DNA of 64,000 nt from Rugalucina vietnamica (lineage: Eukaryota > Mollusca > Bivalvia > Lucinida > Lucinidae). The notes below the pieces were generated by a model that did not search any database, was not told where the DNA came from, and saw nothing but the letters and a program-made list of their open reading frames with translations. This document shows, piece after piece, positions 3,936 to 56,307 of the stretch; the first letter of the stretch is position 1; each line of letters begins with the position of its first letter. The stretch covers positions 2,148,006-2,212,005 of the forward strand of contig OZ024877.1 in NCBI GenBank assembly GCA_964017185.1. Reading direction: 5' to 3'. The translations under genes were made by a program, and so were the position numbers.

Positions 3936-6145
3936 GGTACAAGTAGGCAAAGACCAGGAAAAGGCGCAATGAGCAAAAGATTCCCACTCTAAAAGCCCGA
4001 GGTGGGAAAAAAAACAAACTAACAATCAGGTACCTATACCATGAAAACATTTCGTAAGCCGAATGAGCAGCTATTTTTCCAATAGGTGGCCACACAGTTA
4101 CCTTAACTTAACTAAAAATATGAAAACATACATAAGGCGCCAACATCACAAAAATATTAAACACCAAGACATAAAACATAAAGAACCACCACAGAAGTAT
4201 CGACTTGGAACGATCAGTAACAAAAAGTTACTGGCGGGCTTAAATCGATTTTACACGGCCGTAACCTCACCCTCAGCTTCTGCAGTGGTTCATAACATTT
4301 AGTTAGTTCTTCTTCGGTCCTCGTGGTGAATCTCTAACTAGTCAATGAATCATCAAGAACAAACAAAAAAAATCATGATAAACATCCTGATGAATCAAAA
4401 ACCAGGACTCGCAGATTCAGTAAGCTGCCCGACGATGGAGATCCCTGGGCGCCGAATAACTTACTAACTCCGGAGCAAAAGAAAAACATCAGTTGGACCC
4501 CGGTGGGCCAAGCAACAGACAAGAAGCTCCGGCCCCAACCAACTAAAATGAATAGCTTTAAGTCGGGGCCATCATAGAGTCAGACGCCCGACCCACCGGC
4601 GTGCAATTAAAGAAGGCAGCGTAGTTATCAACCATGATTGGGTTAAAAACTAAGCATGCAGACTGTCGCATAACATTCAAATTATAACCTATACGTCTGT
4701 AACGTGTTATGATTTTTCCAAACTGAAAAGAAAAATCATTACTTCCTATAAGTTTCTTGAATTTGTAAACCAAGTCACCATAAAATTCTGGTTCCGAAAG
4801 GCCCTCATTTAAAAGCGTCTTTAACTTTAAACTTTCCGTTTTTGGATGGTGCCATTCCTCGCCGTGCTTCGTATGGTGTATAAATTTCGCAACTTATTAG
4901 GCTTGCTAGAGTCTGCAGTCATGTTGCGGACTTCAATGCACGAAATAAATGTTTAACAGCCAAACTTCTCCAACAGGCTATCCGTATCATAAACTTCGAA
5001 AAACATTTTTTCTAAATTTTATCGCAGACACTATGAATTTATTTCCAAATTTAATGTTGGGCTCAAGACCCTTTTACGTGAGGGCCTTTCGGGACCAGTA
5101 TTTCATGGTGACTTGGTTTTCAAATGTAAGAAACTTATAGGAAGGACGGATTTTTCTTTTCAATTTTCAATTCAGAAAAATCGTTACATGTTACAGATGT
5201 ATAGGATATATTATGCGACAGTCTGCATGCTTAGTTTTTAACCCAATCATGGTTGATAATTATGCTGCCTTCTTTAATTGCACGTCGGGCGTCAGACTCT
5301 ATTATGGCCCCGACATAAAGCTATTCATTTTAGTTGGTTGGGGCCGGAGCTTCTTGTCTCTTGTTTGGCCCACCGGGGCTCAACTGGTGTTTTTCTTTTG
5401 CTCCGGAGTTAGTAAGTTATTGCGCGCCCAGGGATCTCCATCGTCGGGCAGCTGTGTGTCCTCGTTATTGATTCATCATGGAGTTTATCATGATTTATTT
5501 GTTTGTCCATAATGATTCATTGACTAGTTAGAGATTCGCCACGAGGACCGAACAACTAACTCAATGTTGTGAACCACTGCAGAAGCTGAGGGTGGGGTTA
5601 GGTACCTGTAAAAGCGGTTTAAGCCCCCCAGTAATTTTAATACTGATCGTTCCAAGGCGATACTTCTGTGCTGTTTCTTATTGTTTTATGTCTTGGTGTT
5701 TAAAGTATTTAACCTTTTGGCGCCTTATGTATGTTATCATATTTTAGATAAGTTAGGGTAACTGAGTGGCCACCTATAGGGAAAATAGCTGCTCAGTAAC
5801 CAGTTACTTTGTGTTACTGATCGTTCCAAGGCGATACTTCTGTGGTGGCCAGTAACTTTGTGTTACTGATCGTTCCAAGGCGATACTTCTGTGGTCGTTC
5901 TTTTTGTTTTATGTCTTGGTGTTTAAAATTTTTTCGCTGTTGGCGCCTTAAGTATGTTTTCATATTTTTAGTTAAGTTTAGGTAACTGAGTGACCACCTA
6001 TTGGGAAAATAGCTGCTCATTCGGCTTACGGTATGTTTTCATGGTTAAAGTACCTGGTTGTTAGTTTGTTTTTTTCCCACCTCGGTTTTTGGAGTGGGAA
6101 TCTTTTTCTGATTGCGCCTTTTCCTGATCTTTGCCTACTTGTACC
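3936..6145. mobile_element. T1 family, long fold-back copy (2.2 kb)
   Basis: The left arm starts GGTACAAGTAGGCAAAGACC and runs to about 4825. The same sequence returns inverted from about 5065 to 6145, ending CTTTGCCTACTTGTACC. The two arms meet across about 240 bp of single-copy sequence. Shared landmarks in both arms include TAGGTGGCCAC, GGAACGATCAGTAA, CTTCTGCAGTGGTTCA, CCCGACGATGGAGATCCC and CATGATTGGGTTAAAAACTA. No transposase frame is visible, so this is a non-autonomous fold-back element. The right arm has a local duplication near 5793-5900. Confidence 0.8.
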
Positions 6146-29556: not shown

Positions 29557-29670
29557 ACAAAAGCGACGTACGCCAAGGGTGTGTAGTCTCAAGAAACGAC
29601 ACCACTAAACAAGAGCGGTGGGAAGAAGCAGTTCAAGAAGGCATACATTCAGGGCGATAAAATGGTTGTG
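29557..29670 (+). pseudogene. Copy C exon 3 with nonsense codon
   Basis: Its 114 nt match exon 3 of the siblings. There is a TAG at the conserved Trp codon, and GG replaces the AG acceptor. The donor GTAAGT is intact. Confidence 0.75.
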
Positions 29671-30105
29671 GTAAGTGGTTATACAGCGTTTGTGTGATGT
29701 TTGCCATTCGATAAAATTAAAAAAAATTGCGGCTTACAAAAACACGTCGAATATGACCCCATCTGCTTTGGAAAGTATTTTTATTAAATAGAAACTTTTT
29801 AATATTTATTAAATCAGGGCATACGAGCATAATAGAATTGTACATGCGTAAAAAGTGGCATGACAAAAAATTGATGTGCAGCTACATTTTGATCGGTATC
29901 ATTTTTGTTTTTATAGAATCATATTTGAAAAATTCTTCAGATTGGAAAGGGCTGATCATTTTTCTTTTCATGCCATGTGTTGAGATTTTGTGATGCCAGT
30001 GTATCCTCATTTTTGATTTTGAATTTAATTGGACCAATTTCTGGTTTTTCTATCCTTAATTTCTGGTTTTTCTATCCTTATTTCTATGCTTATTTACTTT
30101 TACAG

Positions 30106-38333: not shown

Positions 38334-38690
38334 TAACCGGTCGATCGAGTGGCTCGGTAGCTCAGTGGTAGTGCTCGCACGGTAAGCGAGAGACCCTGGG
38401 GTCGAGACCCGGTCGGGCCACGTTCTTTTTCCGCCCCTGTGACATTTGGTGGCCAGTGTGGGGGGAGAATGACACAGGGTATAGGTATATAGCACACTTG
38501 TACTGCCTTGCGGTACAAGCCGGCTTTTACAGCGACGTGGTAGAGTGTTCGCTTAGCACGCGAGAGAACCTGGTTCGATCCCCGTCAGGGAAGAAAGAAT
38601 TTTTCTTCGCCTGTTACATTTACAACATAACATCACAGGGGCGAGCACTCTACCACTGAGCTACCGAGCCACTCGATCGACCGGTTACAA
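38334..38690. mobile_element. tRNA-derived inverted pair (SINE-like)
   Basis: GTAACCGGTCGATCGAGTGG followed by the tRNA-like CTCGGTAGCTCAGTGGTAGT (38334-38386) returns inverted at 38637-38686. The first tRNA-like unit (38351-38420) has a pairing acceptor stem and T arm but a shortened D arm and C before the anticodon-like GGT. A second unit (about 38530-38590, CGCTTAGCACGCGAG, GGTTCGATCCCCGTC) resembles tRNA-Ala with anticodon AGC. Neither looks like a functional tRNA gene. Confidence 0.55.
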
Positions 38691-46828: not shown

Positions 46829-46922
46829 ATGTCTTCCTCTGACTACGACGAAGCTGAAAGACTTTTCTGTGGGACGTGGGAAAATATTGGAAACGAAATG
46901 GACGAGTTTATGACGGCTGCCG
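46829..46922 (+). pseudogene. Copy E exon 1
   Basis: 31 codons plus one base, M-S-S-S-D-Y-D-E-A-E-R-L-F-C-G-T-W, donor GTAACA. Undamaged. Confidence 0.8.
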
Positions 46923-47480: not shown

Positions 47481-47498
47481 CATTGCCTAACGATTTCA
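47481..47498 (+). pseudogene. Copy E exon 2, 5' part
   Basis: 18 nt after GTGTTACAG coding (in phase with exon 1) A-L-P-N-D-F, ending in the left TTCA of the target duplication. Confidence 0.75.
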
Positions 47499-47958
47499 GG
47501 TTGCATTTCACCATTAGGTTTTCCATAGGTGACAATGTTAACGTTTCGTCACCTAGCTCGAAAACTAGACATACGAAATTCACAAGACTGGTCTCATTTT
47601 AAACGTCCATCATAGCCCATTAATTTAAATGAAAACAATCAGCATGTTTACCTACTCAATTCAAAACTAGGTCCCGTTAAACGGAAGCACCCTCAGAAAC
47701 CATGCTTTCTAATGCGGGTGGGTCTTCAGAGGGGTTCATGGAGAAAAATCCGTCCCGTTCCCATCCGATACCGGGATTTATCGACTAAAACATGGCATTC
47801 GAAACGGCGCATATTTCAACTTTTAAAACAAACACTTCACAGCGGAAATCAATCAACGATTATTGACAGGTGACGTCATTTTTGTCTCTAATACAAAGTA
47901 AATGCTCTCCCCGAAAAAGGCGGGGCAAGTACTTATGAATATTTAGTAGTATGTACCC
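47499..47958. repeat. Left terminal direct repeat
   Basis: It starts GGTTGCATTTCACCATTAGG and ends AGTAGTATGTACCC. It is identical to 49276-49735 on reading. Confidence 0.9.
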
Positions 47959-49275
47959 TAAATTGATTCCTTAATTTTCTGTATTCTATCAAAAGAACGT
48001 ATTTTGTGCAAACTTAAGATACGTGTAGCATTTATGCAAAGTTTGAGTGAGATCGGTTAACTGGTTTTCCGATTATGGCCAATTAAGCATGCCCACCCAC
48101 CTCATTTTTACCAAGTGGCTTGAATTTGCGATTTTGAGAAGTAATGATAAGAAAATCGACCTTAATTTGTATTGTATTGCATTTATGCATCATTTTATTC
48201 TTCAAAATGTTGCATGAATATGTATACAAAACAAAACATCAGATAAAATGTTCAAAAAATTCATGTGCACAATAATTAGCATACATTTTCTAGGTATACC
48301 CCCAATTTATCAAAGAAAATTGGAAATACGAATTTTCCATAGCAACCATGCGTTATTGCACGTAAAACGATCCACATAACTGTCTAAATGCGTAAAACAC
48401 ACATGTTTCCTTGTAAAACAGCACACACAATCCTTACAATACAAATCATTTACTCGCAAGCATGCTCACCGACCTCATTTTAACATATTTGTTCTAATTT
48501 GCGATTTTGAGAAATAGTGATGAGTAAATCTAACCTTATTTGCATTGTATTATATTTGTGTATCATTTTATTCTTCAGATTATTACACGAATATTTAGAG
48601 AATGCAAAATATCAGATGAAATGTTCCAGCCACGTATTTGTGGTATTACAGACATACTTTTTCTAGGTATACCCCCATTTTACTGTGGAAAATTGTAAAA
48701 CTACGAATTTTCCATAGCAACCATGCATTATAAGGGGTAAAATGAGCCACGTGACTGTGAAAGTGTGCAAAACTCACATTAATCGAAGTAAAACAGCGAA
48801 CCCAAGCTTTACGAGACAAATTATGTACTGGCAATATGACATTTTATGTATAAGTAAGCCACGAATATGCCTGTTCTCAATAGATGCTTGATTCTGCTTG
48901 AAGCCGAGTTTCGACATCAAATTAATTTCTACGTCACCAAGTCGCATTTTGTTACAGCCACATGACACTGCACTTGTTCCAGGAAAGCTTAGCTGTTACA
49001 TAGTATTAACACCAAGAGCCACTTTGCCATTTCTTTATCCCCATCCCCAAACTCAACGGGAAAGACTGCAAAAACACGAAACGAGTGCTTGAATCCCATT
49101 ACAAAAATGACACTAAAATCAGTGAATTTTTCGTTTCCTCCTTAACTCTGTGTATGGATTTCACTCAGAAGAGAGTGTGTTCCAGAAAAGAAGAGATACA
49201 TACCGGCTGTAGTCAGTAATTTTCGCAAGATAGAGGAAAAGCCAAGCAATAGTCTGTCTCGTCAATCCCCCTTTA

Positions 49276-49735
49276 GGTTGCATTTCACCATTAGGTTTTC
49301 CATAGGTGACAATGTTAACGTTTCGTCACCTAGCTCGAAAACTAGACATACGAAATTCACAAGACTGGTCTCATTTTAAACGTCCATCATAGCCCATTAA
49401 TTTAAATGAAAACAATCAGCATGTTTACCTACTCAATTCAAAACTAGGTCCCGTTAAACGGAAGCACCCTCAGAAACCATGCTTTCTAATGCGGGTGGGT
49501 CTTCAGAGGGGTTCATGGAGAAAAATCCGTCCCGTTCCCATCCGATACCGGGATTTATCGACTAAAACATGGCATTCGAAACGGCGCATATTTCAACTTT
49601 TAAAACAAACACTTCACAGCGGAAATCAATCAACGATTATTGACAGGTGACGTCATTTTTGTCTCTAATACAAAGTAAATGCTCTCCCCGAAAAAGGCGG
49701 GGCAAGTACTTATGAATATTTAGTAGTATGTACCC
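49276..49735. repeat. Right terminal direct repeat
   Basis: Same sequence as 47499-47958, 1777 bp further on. Confidence 0.9.
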
Positions 49736-49739
49736 TTCA

Positions 49740-49894
49740 AGGCACAGATTCTGAATGAGAAGATAATCACTCTGACAAGAGAGGGCAACTCTCTTCTATG
49801 GAGGACTGGCGGGGTAGATAAAGAGTTTGTTATGAAGATAAATGAGACAACAGAATGGAAAGAAAAGGAAGAGGACCCAGTGTTCTTTCTTAAG
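49740..49894 (+). pseudogene. Copy E exon 2, 3' part
   Basis: It continues K-A-Q-I-L-N-E-K through E-W-K-E-K-E-E-D-P-V-F-F-L-K and ends before GTAATG. Confidence 0.8.
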
Positions 49895-50245
49895 GTAATG
49901 AAAAGGTAATGAAAACTTGCTCGTCTCAATTAGATAATTTTGGTTAGCGTCCTTAACAGAAAATCTCAAACTCTTGATTCACTGGTCTGAATCGACCGCC
50001 ATGTACCGTCCATTTCATGCTTTTTTAATTCAAATTACTTCTTTAAAAGTTTTGTGTTATTAGATTTTAAAATTATTTGCGATTGAATAGGTAGTAGTTT
50101 TATCATTCGAATTATTTTCTAGGTAACTGTTTAAACATTCAAATTATATTCTACGTAACTATTTCATCATTCAAATTATTTTCTAGGTAAGTTTTATCAT
50201 TTAAATTATTTTCTAGATAACTGACCTATAATTCGATTTTTCTAG

Positions 50246-50362
50246 GTAACAGTTTTATCATTCAAAGACGGTGTGTGGACAATGGAATTCACCCCTATGA
50301 AGCCAAATGGTGGAAAGAGACACATACTTGCCGTAACAGTACAGGACGGGCAAATGATATAC
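50246..50362 (+). pseudogene. Copy E exon 3
   Basis: 39 codons after TTTTTCTAG, V-T-V-L-S-F-K-D-G-V-W, ending Q-M-I-Y before GTAAGA. One codon longer than the sibling exons, at its 5' end. Confidence 0.8.
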
Positions 50363-50401
50363 GTAAGATCAATCACGAAAGGAGTTGGTAAAAAAAACAA
50401 A

Positions 50402-50437
50402 GTACAAGTAGGCAAAGATCAGGAAAAGGCGCAATCC
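50402..50437 (+). mobile_element. T1 terminal fragment
   Basis: GTACAAGTAGGCAAAGATCA followed by GGAAAAGGCGCAATCC, 36 bp only. Confidence 0.7.
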
Positions 50438-53689: not shown

Positions 53690-55056
53690 CTACGTGCATG
53701 TCCAAAATATGCAAGCAAGTGTTATAGGTCTTGTGCATCACATATCTTGTCATTCTGTTTTATAAGTGTACCAAGTTTCATTGAAATATCTCTTACGGTT
53801 TTCAAGTTATAGAGGGGGTACGAAAGTGTTTGGAAAATAATCAAAGGGAAATAACTCCAAAGATATGAAAGCAAGAGTAATGATTCTTGTGCATCATGCT
53901 TTATAAGTGTACCATGTTTCATTGAAAAATCTCTAATGGTTTTTGAGTTATAGAGCAGACACGAAATTGAATGAAAAATAATCAAAGGGAAATAACTCCA
54001 AAGATATGCAAGCAAGAGTTATGGTTCTTTAGCATGACACATCATCTCATCGTGCTTTATAAGTGTACAGTTTCATTGAAATATTTCTTATGGTTTTCAA
54101 GTTATAGAGTGGACATGAAATTGTATGGAAAAATAATCAAAGGCAAATAACTCCAAAGATATGAAAGCAAGAGTTATAATTCTTGTGCATGACACATCGT
54201 CTCATCATGCTTTATAAGTGTACCAAGTTTCACTGAAATTTCTCTTACGGTTTTCAAGTTATAGGGTGGACACGAAATTGTATGGAAAATAATCAAAGGG
54301 AAATTACTCCAAAGATATGCAAGCAAGAGTTATGGTTCTTTAGCGTGACACGTAATCTCATCGTGCTTTATAAGTGTACCAACTTTCATTGAAATAACTC
54401 TTTCGATTTTCGAGTTATAAAGCGGACACGAAATTGTATCGAAAATAATCAAAGGGAAATAACTCCAAAAATACTCAAGCCATAGTTATGGTTCTTGTGC
54501 ATGACACATTGTCTGATCATGCTCAATAAGTGTACCAAGTTTTATTGAAAAATCTTAAACGGTTTTCAAGTTATACAGCAGACACGAAATTGTATCGAAA
54601 ATAATCAAAGGGAAATAACTCCAAAAATACTCAAGCCAGAGTTATGGTTCTTCTGCATGACACATCGTCTTATCAAGGTCTACAAGTGTACCAAGTTTCA
54701 GTGAAAAATCTTTAACGGTTTTCAAGTTATACAGCGGACACGAAATTGTATCGAAAATAATCAAAGGGAAATAACTCCAAAAATACTCAAGCCAAAGTTA
54801 TGGATCTTGTGCATGACACATCGTCTCATCAAGGTCTACAAGTGTACCAAGTTTCAGTGAAAAATCTTTAACGGTTTTCAAGTTATACAGCGGACACAAA
54901 ATTGTATCGAAAATAATCAAAGGGAAATAACTCCAAAAATACTCAAGCTAGAGTTATGGTTCTTGTGCATGACACATCATCTCGTTGTGGTTTACAAGTG
55001 TACCAAGTTTCATTGAAAAATCTTTAACGGTTTTCAAGTTATAGAGCGGACACGAT
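53690..55056 (+). repeat. 156-bp tandem array with GACA tail
   Basis: The block ATCAAAGGGAAATAACTCCA begins at 53840, 53981, 54136, 54292, 54448, 54604, 54760 and 54916; the last six steps are 156 bp. The array ends in (GACA)n/(GACG)n at 55064-55098 and a hairpin tail CTCCCGACCCTGTCGGGGGG (55124-55149). Non-coding. Confidence 0.9.
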
Positions 55057-55060
55057 TTGT

Positions 55061-55092
<32 letters not shown>

Positions 55093-55174
55093 GACGGACA
55101 GACGCACGGGGAAAAACAATATGTCTCCCGACCCTGTCGGGGGGAGACATAATACGACTATTGTCCCGGTTGAG

Positions 55175-56244: not shown

Positions 56245-56307
56245 GAAATAACGTTGCCTGGTTACCCTGGTGTCCATGGGAAAAGGATGTTTAGAAGATG
56301 CAGCTAG
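56245..56307 (+). pseudogene. Copy E exon 4
   Basis: 20 residues plus TAG after TTTATTTTCAG. R-M-F takes the place of R-x-Y. Confidence 0.8.

Follow-up and report, generated by a model that had tools for sequence, protein, structure and literature searches.

A probable KolobokP-type transposon lacking genes of its own within a coding exon of a bivalve FABP gene

The FABP-E gene and its interrupted exon

The stretch of DNA analysed here (hereafter the window) spans 64,000 nucleotides of the Rugalucina vietnamica genome (assembly GCA_964017185.1, contig OZ024877.1) and carries a cluster of FABP gene copies, A to E. FABP-E lies on the + strand and comprises exon 1 (46829..46922, phase 1 at its end), exon 2 in two portions upstream (47481..47498) and downstream (49740..49894) of an insert, exon 3 (50246..50362), and exon 4 with the stop codon (56245..56307; EITLPGYPGVHGKRMFRRCS before the stop), which was recognised by its likeness to exon 4 of copies A, B, and C. 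Once the insert and one copy of the flanking TTCA are removed, exon 2 becomes an open frame of 173 nt with acceptor AG and donor GT that aligns with copies A and B through the insertion point, and the description of the joined exon as sound in the first-pass annotation is borne out. The four exons then encode an open protein of 148 aa with sound splice dinucleotides, which aligns over its full length with copies A and B at 38% and 41% identity, respectively. A profile of the E, A, and B proteins places FABP-E in the FABP/CRABP group, matching CRABP2 and FABP chains in the PDB (best E 1.4e-6); the FABP-E protein alone has no Pfam match, its exons 1-3 alone have no PDB match, and a single one of the three proteins reaches Lipocalin_7, only at E 0.031.

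The insert occupies 47499..49735 on the + strand and measures 2,237 bp. It consists of a left long terminal direct repeat (LTDR; 47499..47958), an internal region (INT; 47959..49275), and a right LTDR (49276..49735), flanked by the target site duplication TTCA at 47495..47498 and 49736..49739. Each LTDR is 460 bp long, starts with GG, and ends with CC, and the two differ at none of their 460 positions when compared base by base. The 2.24-kb element, its exact 4-bp duplication, and its identical direct ends had all been claimed at first reading, and each is confirmed. The INT (1,317 bp, starting with TAAA and ending with TTTA) contains a direct duplication at 48085..48834, the two parts of which (48085-48459 and 48458-48834) are 75% identical. 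The orientation of the element is that of the FABP gene if the transposase strand of L059, an autonomous element discussed below, is counted as sense. At the tips of each LTDR, inverted repeats agree at 6/8 and 9/15 positions, and about 0.5% of other offsets are equally good.

The longest stop-to-stop ORF that lies fully within the INT is 73 aa. Five ORFs overlapping the element were scanned, and none had a match above the cut-off; the one weak match, to PF23740 (E 0.012), scores 16.1 bits where 27 are required. Neither the ORF list nor the profile scan revealed a transposase or His-Me nuclease of the transposon group KolobokP, and the FABP-E copy can therefore be at most a non-autonomous member of that group. 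No known RNA family reaches its gathering score in the element, and three matches fall below threshold.

If the insert is retained in the mRNA, the first in-frame stop (47600..47602, + strand) halts translation at 71 aa, with 34 C-terminal residues derived from the element. The sense strand of the FABP-E element was scanned for AATAAA and ATTAAA and contains neither, so that termination of the transcript at such a signal within the element is not expected. By eye, the left junction CAG|GTTGCA resembles a splice donor; removal of the insert by splicing was considered and dropped on the same by-eye, unscored reading, as the nearest AG past the insert would break the frame. The simplest outcome is thus the truncated 71-aa product, and FABP-E is presumably now a null gene. 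Loss of a gene in an FABP cluster would be an ordinary kind of event. The first-pass annotation had weighed whether all relatives might hold the same 2.24 kb; among the copies in the window, exon 2 is unsplit in A, B, and D. Copy C has an in-frame stop in exon 3 (29557-29685) and may be a pseudogene.

Copies, solo repeats, and arrays in the same genome

A search of the window's own 1.09-Gb assembly, in which 33 of 337 candidates were scored, found 31 full-length places besides the FABP-E copy, two of them with a common LTDR, and three additional partial copies; the other scored copies are 94-95% identical. Twenty loci were read; they represent 19 insertions, as two of them lie in the same array and overlap. 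These loci are among the top-scoring ones and are biased toward young or similar copies (33/337 here; 40/471 scored in the LTDR search), and they diverge from one another by up to 5.9%. The element ends are GG..CC in all 20. Of the 19 insertions, 18 have an exact 4-bp duplication at these same ends, with a sequence that differs between sites; among them is L008, where a surrounding GATA repeat makes the length of the duplication ambiguous. The sole exception (L003) has no 4-bp duplication. Because copies occur throughout the same genome with such duplications at constant ends, the insert in FABP-E is not a chance structure.

The first 20 bases of the LTDR occur 549 times genome-wide (228 + 321; up to two mismatches), and INT-LTDR junctions occur 153 times (37 + 116; up to three mismatches over 29 bases), with reversed and junction controls both yielding 0. 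Approximately 396 LTDR starts, a difference between two counts with unequal mismatch limits, have no recognisable INT end directly before them. These comprise left ends, solo LTDRs, or decayed copies, among which solos were not separately counted. The solo LTDRs that were read have GG..CC ends, with 4-bp duplications at four of four independent places.

Head-to-tail arrays are located on C9, C2, C1, C6, and C3. The C9 array has two units with a common LTDR and TGGA/TGGA on its outer sides, and the C2 array has five LTDRs. The largest (C3:9453885-9554101) spans 100 kb and has 54 exact INT-LTDR junctions, mostly 1,782 bp apart; a 3,564-bp gap represents two units with an inexact middle LTDR start, and three 3,102-bp steps, which are INT-INT units, are spaced 17,358 bp apart in a short higher-order pattern. 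This array of about 100 kb has the features of a transposon becoming a satellite. The order LTDR-INT-INT-LTDR, with directly abutting INTs, was read twice (L070 and L071): the INT end CTCCCTTTA is joined to the INT start TAAATTG as CTCCCTTTAAATTG, with 2 bp lost. In a search limited to this junction form, nine occurrences were found at three loci (C1, C3, and C6). The loss would fit repair via the TA common to TTTA and TAAA. Taken as a family, these copies are non-autonomous, KolobokP-type, and apparently recently active.

Likeness to KolobokP and rival origins

KolobokP elements are composite-like DNA transposons, abundant in bivalves, of which 228 families have been described (Kojima and Bao, 2022; PMC9587614). 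The published account gives them LTDRs of 450 or 660 bp, 5'-RR..YY-3' ends, and 3-5-bp duplications at sites for which they have no strong preference, and places short inverted repeats (11-18 bp, perfect or imperfect) at the LTDR tips (PMC9587614). They occur as solo LTDRs, as (LTDR-INT)n-LTDR multimers with flanking duplications, and with INT-INT junctions from LTDR loss; autonomous members encode a DDD/E transposase and a His-Me nuclease in the internal region (PMC9587614). Non-autonomous families of the Pacific oyster measure 1,738-3,261 bp, and KolobokP-4N1_CorFlu, also non-autonomous, measures 2,637 bp with 473-bp LTDRs (PMC9587614).

The FABP-E element shares with these descriptions its LTDR-INT-LTDR build, a size within the oyster range, and LTDRs of roughly 450 bp, and its family shares GG..CC (RR..YY) ends, varied 4-bp duplications, and the lack of own genes (PMC9587614). 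Solo LTDRs, multimers, and INT-INT junctions are likewise common to both (PMC9587614), the two-unit C9 array with TGGA on both sides being the only array in which flanking duplications were read. Two of the differences count against this assignment. The LTDRs of the FABP-E element have weak inverted repeats at their tips, and the INT-INT loss is 2 bp, whereas the published values are 3-4 bp for INT-INT junctions and 1-5 bp for excisions (PMC9587614). An array of about 100 kb does not figure in the available parts of the published description (PMC9587614). Kolobok sensu stricto differs in its TTAA-specific duplication, in contrast to TTCA in FABP-E and varied sequences elsewhere.

Genes suited to moving such an element are also present in the genome. 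A search with the His-Me finger nuclease profile PF05551 (49 of 49 candidates scored) gave 40 matches, 39 of them above the cut-off, and 0 of 14 control genomes were positive. Several matches form arrays: seven at exact 4,231-bp steps (C12:28967055-28992698), eight at 4,606-bp steps except one of 3,953 bp (C2:67351640-67383471), and a longer run at about 4,980-bp steps, some of them odd (C4:68181198-68231791). These arrays are likely autonomous KolobokP multimers; what was read is one C12 unit, one C4 unit, and a site elsewhere on C2 with the same 4,606-bp step. All five PF05551 loci fetched contain a long ORF matching the Pfam Mutator-like transposase (PF20700; E 2.4e-35 or better).

One autonomous element, L059, connects these genes with the family of the FABP-E element. 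Its 460-bp LTDR is present in two copies one mismatch apart, with tips GGTGGCACTACTATA and GGTTGCACTACTATA that form an inverted repeat of 14/15 at independently fixed bounds; the scan behind this figure also turns up pairs of 12-14 by chance at most loci. Over about 50 bp, the 3' end of this LTDR aligns with positions 403-453 of the LTDR in FABP-E, the two agreeing in placement and orientation. The score is 43, whereas the highest of 300 shuffles is 30; the region was picked after a BLAST match at E 8e-4. Against the whole locus, the best of 60 shuffles scores 35, and the match recurs at the second LTDR of L059. The outer flanks of L059 have no 4-bp duplication (TTTA and TGCA). Among the 12 autonomous loci compared, seven of which are stretches of about 1.9-2 kb with LTDR presence unproven, the other 11 gave no LTDR score above their own shuffles. 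That only one of 12 loci shares LTDR sequence, over some 50 bp and without an outer duplication, also counts against a KolobokP origin. L060 has 461-bp ends, an inverted repeat of 12/15 at its bounds, and TTTA and TAAA flanks like the INT ends of the FABP-E element; chance pairs of the same quality occur elsewhere, and the likeness is only suggestive.

Resting on anatomy, domains, and the L059 link within the genome, with KolobokP compared by published description rather than by sequence, the FABP-E element is very probably a non-autonomous KolobokP-type DNA transposon inserted as a monomer. The observed anatomy, duplication, family, same-genome KolobokP-type genes, and one element with the same LTDR end would be accommodated by the following course of events. 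A non-autonomous member would have moved as an LTDR-INT-LTDR monomer into exon 2 of FABP-E, with the DDD/E transposase supplied in trans and a 4-bp staggered cut at the target giving rise to TTCA/TTCA. We infer that the KolobokP-type proteins of this genome moved the copy and that it arrived in one step; judged from their sequences, these proteins are candidate enzymes for the family.

An origin as an LTR retrotransposon would fit the absence of any difference within the LTDR pair in 15 of 20 copies although the lineages differ, the private states found in both ends, and the varied 4-bp duplications. However, the ends are GG..CC and not TG..CA, and in either orientation of the FABP-E element no primer-binding site (no TGG start after either end) and no polypurine tract is seen by eye. 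INT-INT junctions from which the entire LTDR is gone occur at three loci, and an LTDR end is common to the transposase-bearing L059. Two retroelement groups deserve comparison. The bivalve TRIMs known as biv-TRIM resemble the FABP-E element in being short and non-coding, with direct terminal repeats, solos, and tandem copies, but have repeats of 202-218 bp, an inner domain of 77-80 bp, and a 7-bp polypurine tract, whereas the FABP-E element is 2.2 kb long, has GG..CC ends, and is linked to a DNA transposase (PMC6934838). Troyka elements share LTR-like ends other than TG..CA, but these are CG..CG with 3-bp duplications, in contrast to GG..CC with 4 bp (PMC12440569). LTR retrotransposons, TRIMs, and Troyka were dropped on the strength of the end sequence, the by-eye lack of a primer-binding site, the INT-INT junctions, and the link to a transposase element. 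The FABP-E element is probably not an LTR retrotransposon, and we regard that origin as very improbable.

Arrival in two steps, in which a solo LTDR entered the exon and subsequently took up an LTDR-INT circle by recombination, would account for the identical ends without insertion of a monomer. Entry of a circle into a solo LTDR is one published model (PMC9587614), many of the 549 LTDR starts have no preceding INT (against 153 INT-LTDR junctions), and the nearest LTDR found is a solo. Nothing at the FABP-E locus points to it directly, and the full sibling L053 makes a monomer source possible; we consider this route improbable. An assembly artefact, whether a false duplication of one 460-bp repeat, which the first-pass annotation had raised, or a chimera, is barely credible. 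The ends are identical, and the evidence comes from a single assembly, but the 2.24-kb structure recurs at many sites across the genome with other flanks and duplications, and the exon frame is exactly restored.

Age, homogenisation of the ends, and neighbouring repeats

In the whole-element search, the closest of 19 copies differed by 5.2%, as if the FABP-E copy lacked close kin, a result overturned by the LTDR search. The nearest kin found is a solo LTDR on C12 with one substitution in 460, and the nearest full copy is L053 on C10, which has the duplication TCAT. A nested insert of 1.4 kb in L053 (1858-3266) has CAGGGCGCCC..GGGCGCCCTG ends and an apparent TATTTAG duplication. The LTDRs of L053 differ at 10 of 430 positions, in contrast to 0 of 460 in the FABP-E copy, which suggests that the FABP-E insertion is the younger; at the age of L053, the probability of no differences would be 2e-5, assuming no conversion between LTDRs. 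A relative-rate count over 2,213 sites gives 16 changes in the FABP-E copy only and 18 in L053 only, and by this count alone the FABP-E copy is not demonstrably younger. Apart from the insert, the rest of FABP-E is open.

The first-pass annotation had taken the identical ends as a sign of a recent event. The youth of the insertion is indeed likely on these grounds, yet the ends of KolobokP are not rebuilt by reverse transcription, and identity consequently dates the last homogenisation and not strictly the insertion. Among the sampled LTDRs, the closest relative of an LTDR is its own partner in 11 of 20 copies, with seven ties and two cases in which it is not (L007 and L053). Of the states that only a single sampled copy possesses, 19 are present in both of its LTDRs and 15 in just one of them, nine of these 15 in L053. 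This pattern likewise counts against a simple KolobokP reading, because private states in both LTDRs mean that plain cut-and-paste is insufficient by itself. Unequal exchange, nuclease-driven conversion, or a circle with one LTDR would yield them. Tentatively, and at somewhat unfavourable odds, KolobokP might be copied replicatively from a one-LTDR circle (LTDR-INT), with both LTDRs stemming from one template and arrays arising by the same route. If so, LTR-like concerted ends could arise from DNA alone, and a transposon would have a path toward becoming a satellite, as in the 100-kb C3 array.

Relative to the literature, the FABP-E insertion represents a known type of element in clean form and nothing unheard of: a composite-like DNA transposon that cleanly breaks a coding exon, in a genome that also has genes of a sort expected to mobilise it. 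With its 549 LTDR starts, solos, arrays, INT-INT scars, and one candidate autonomous relative, the family is good material for studying end likeness and array formation in KolobokP. Where KolobokP abounds, it is unsafe to equate identical direct ends with an LTR retrotransposon, and hence with a clock.

The right flank of the insertion (49740-50420) occurs only once in the assembly, and consequently no empty allele is at hand there for the presence/absence polymorphism between individuals that the first-pass annotation had considered plausible. From about 50436 onward, within intron 3 of FABP-E, another dispersed repeat starts; when 40 of 544 candidates were scored, 39 further long matches emerged, which are 92-97% identical. 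Farther along, 53892-55103 holds a 156-bp tandem repeat of 7.5 copies followed by (GACA)n, which we take to resemble bivalve Helentron-type elements. Elsewhere in the window, a SECIS_1 match on the - strand (4516-4583; 37.9 bits, above the Rfam cut-off) possibly marks a selenoprotein gene, and an Rfam tRNA match at 38351-38420 (35.5 bits), not called by ARAGORN, is perhaps the head of a SINE.
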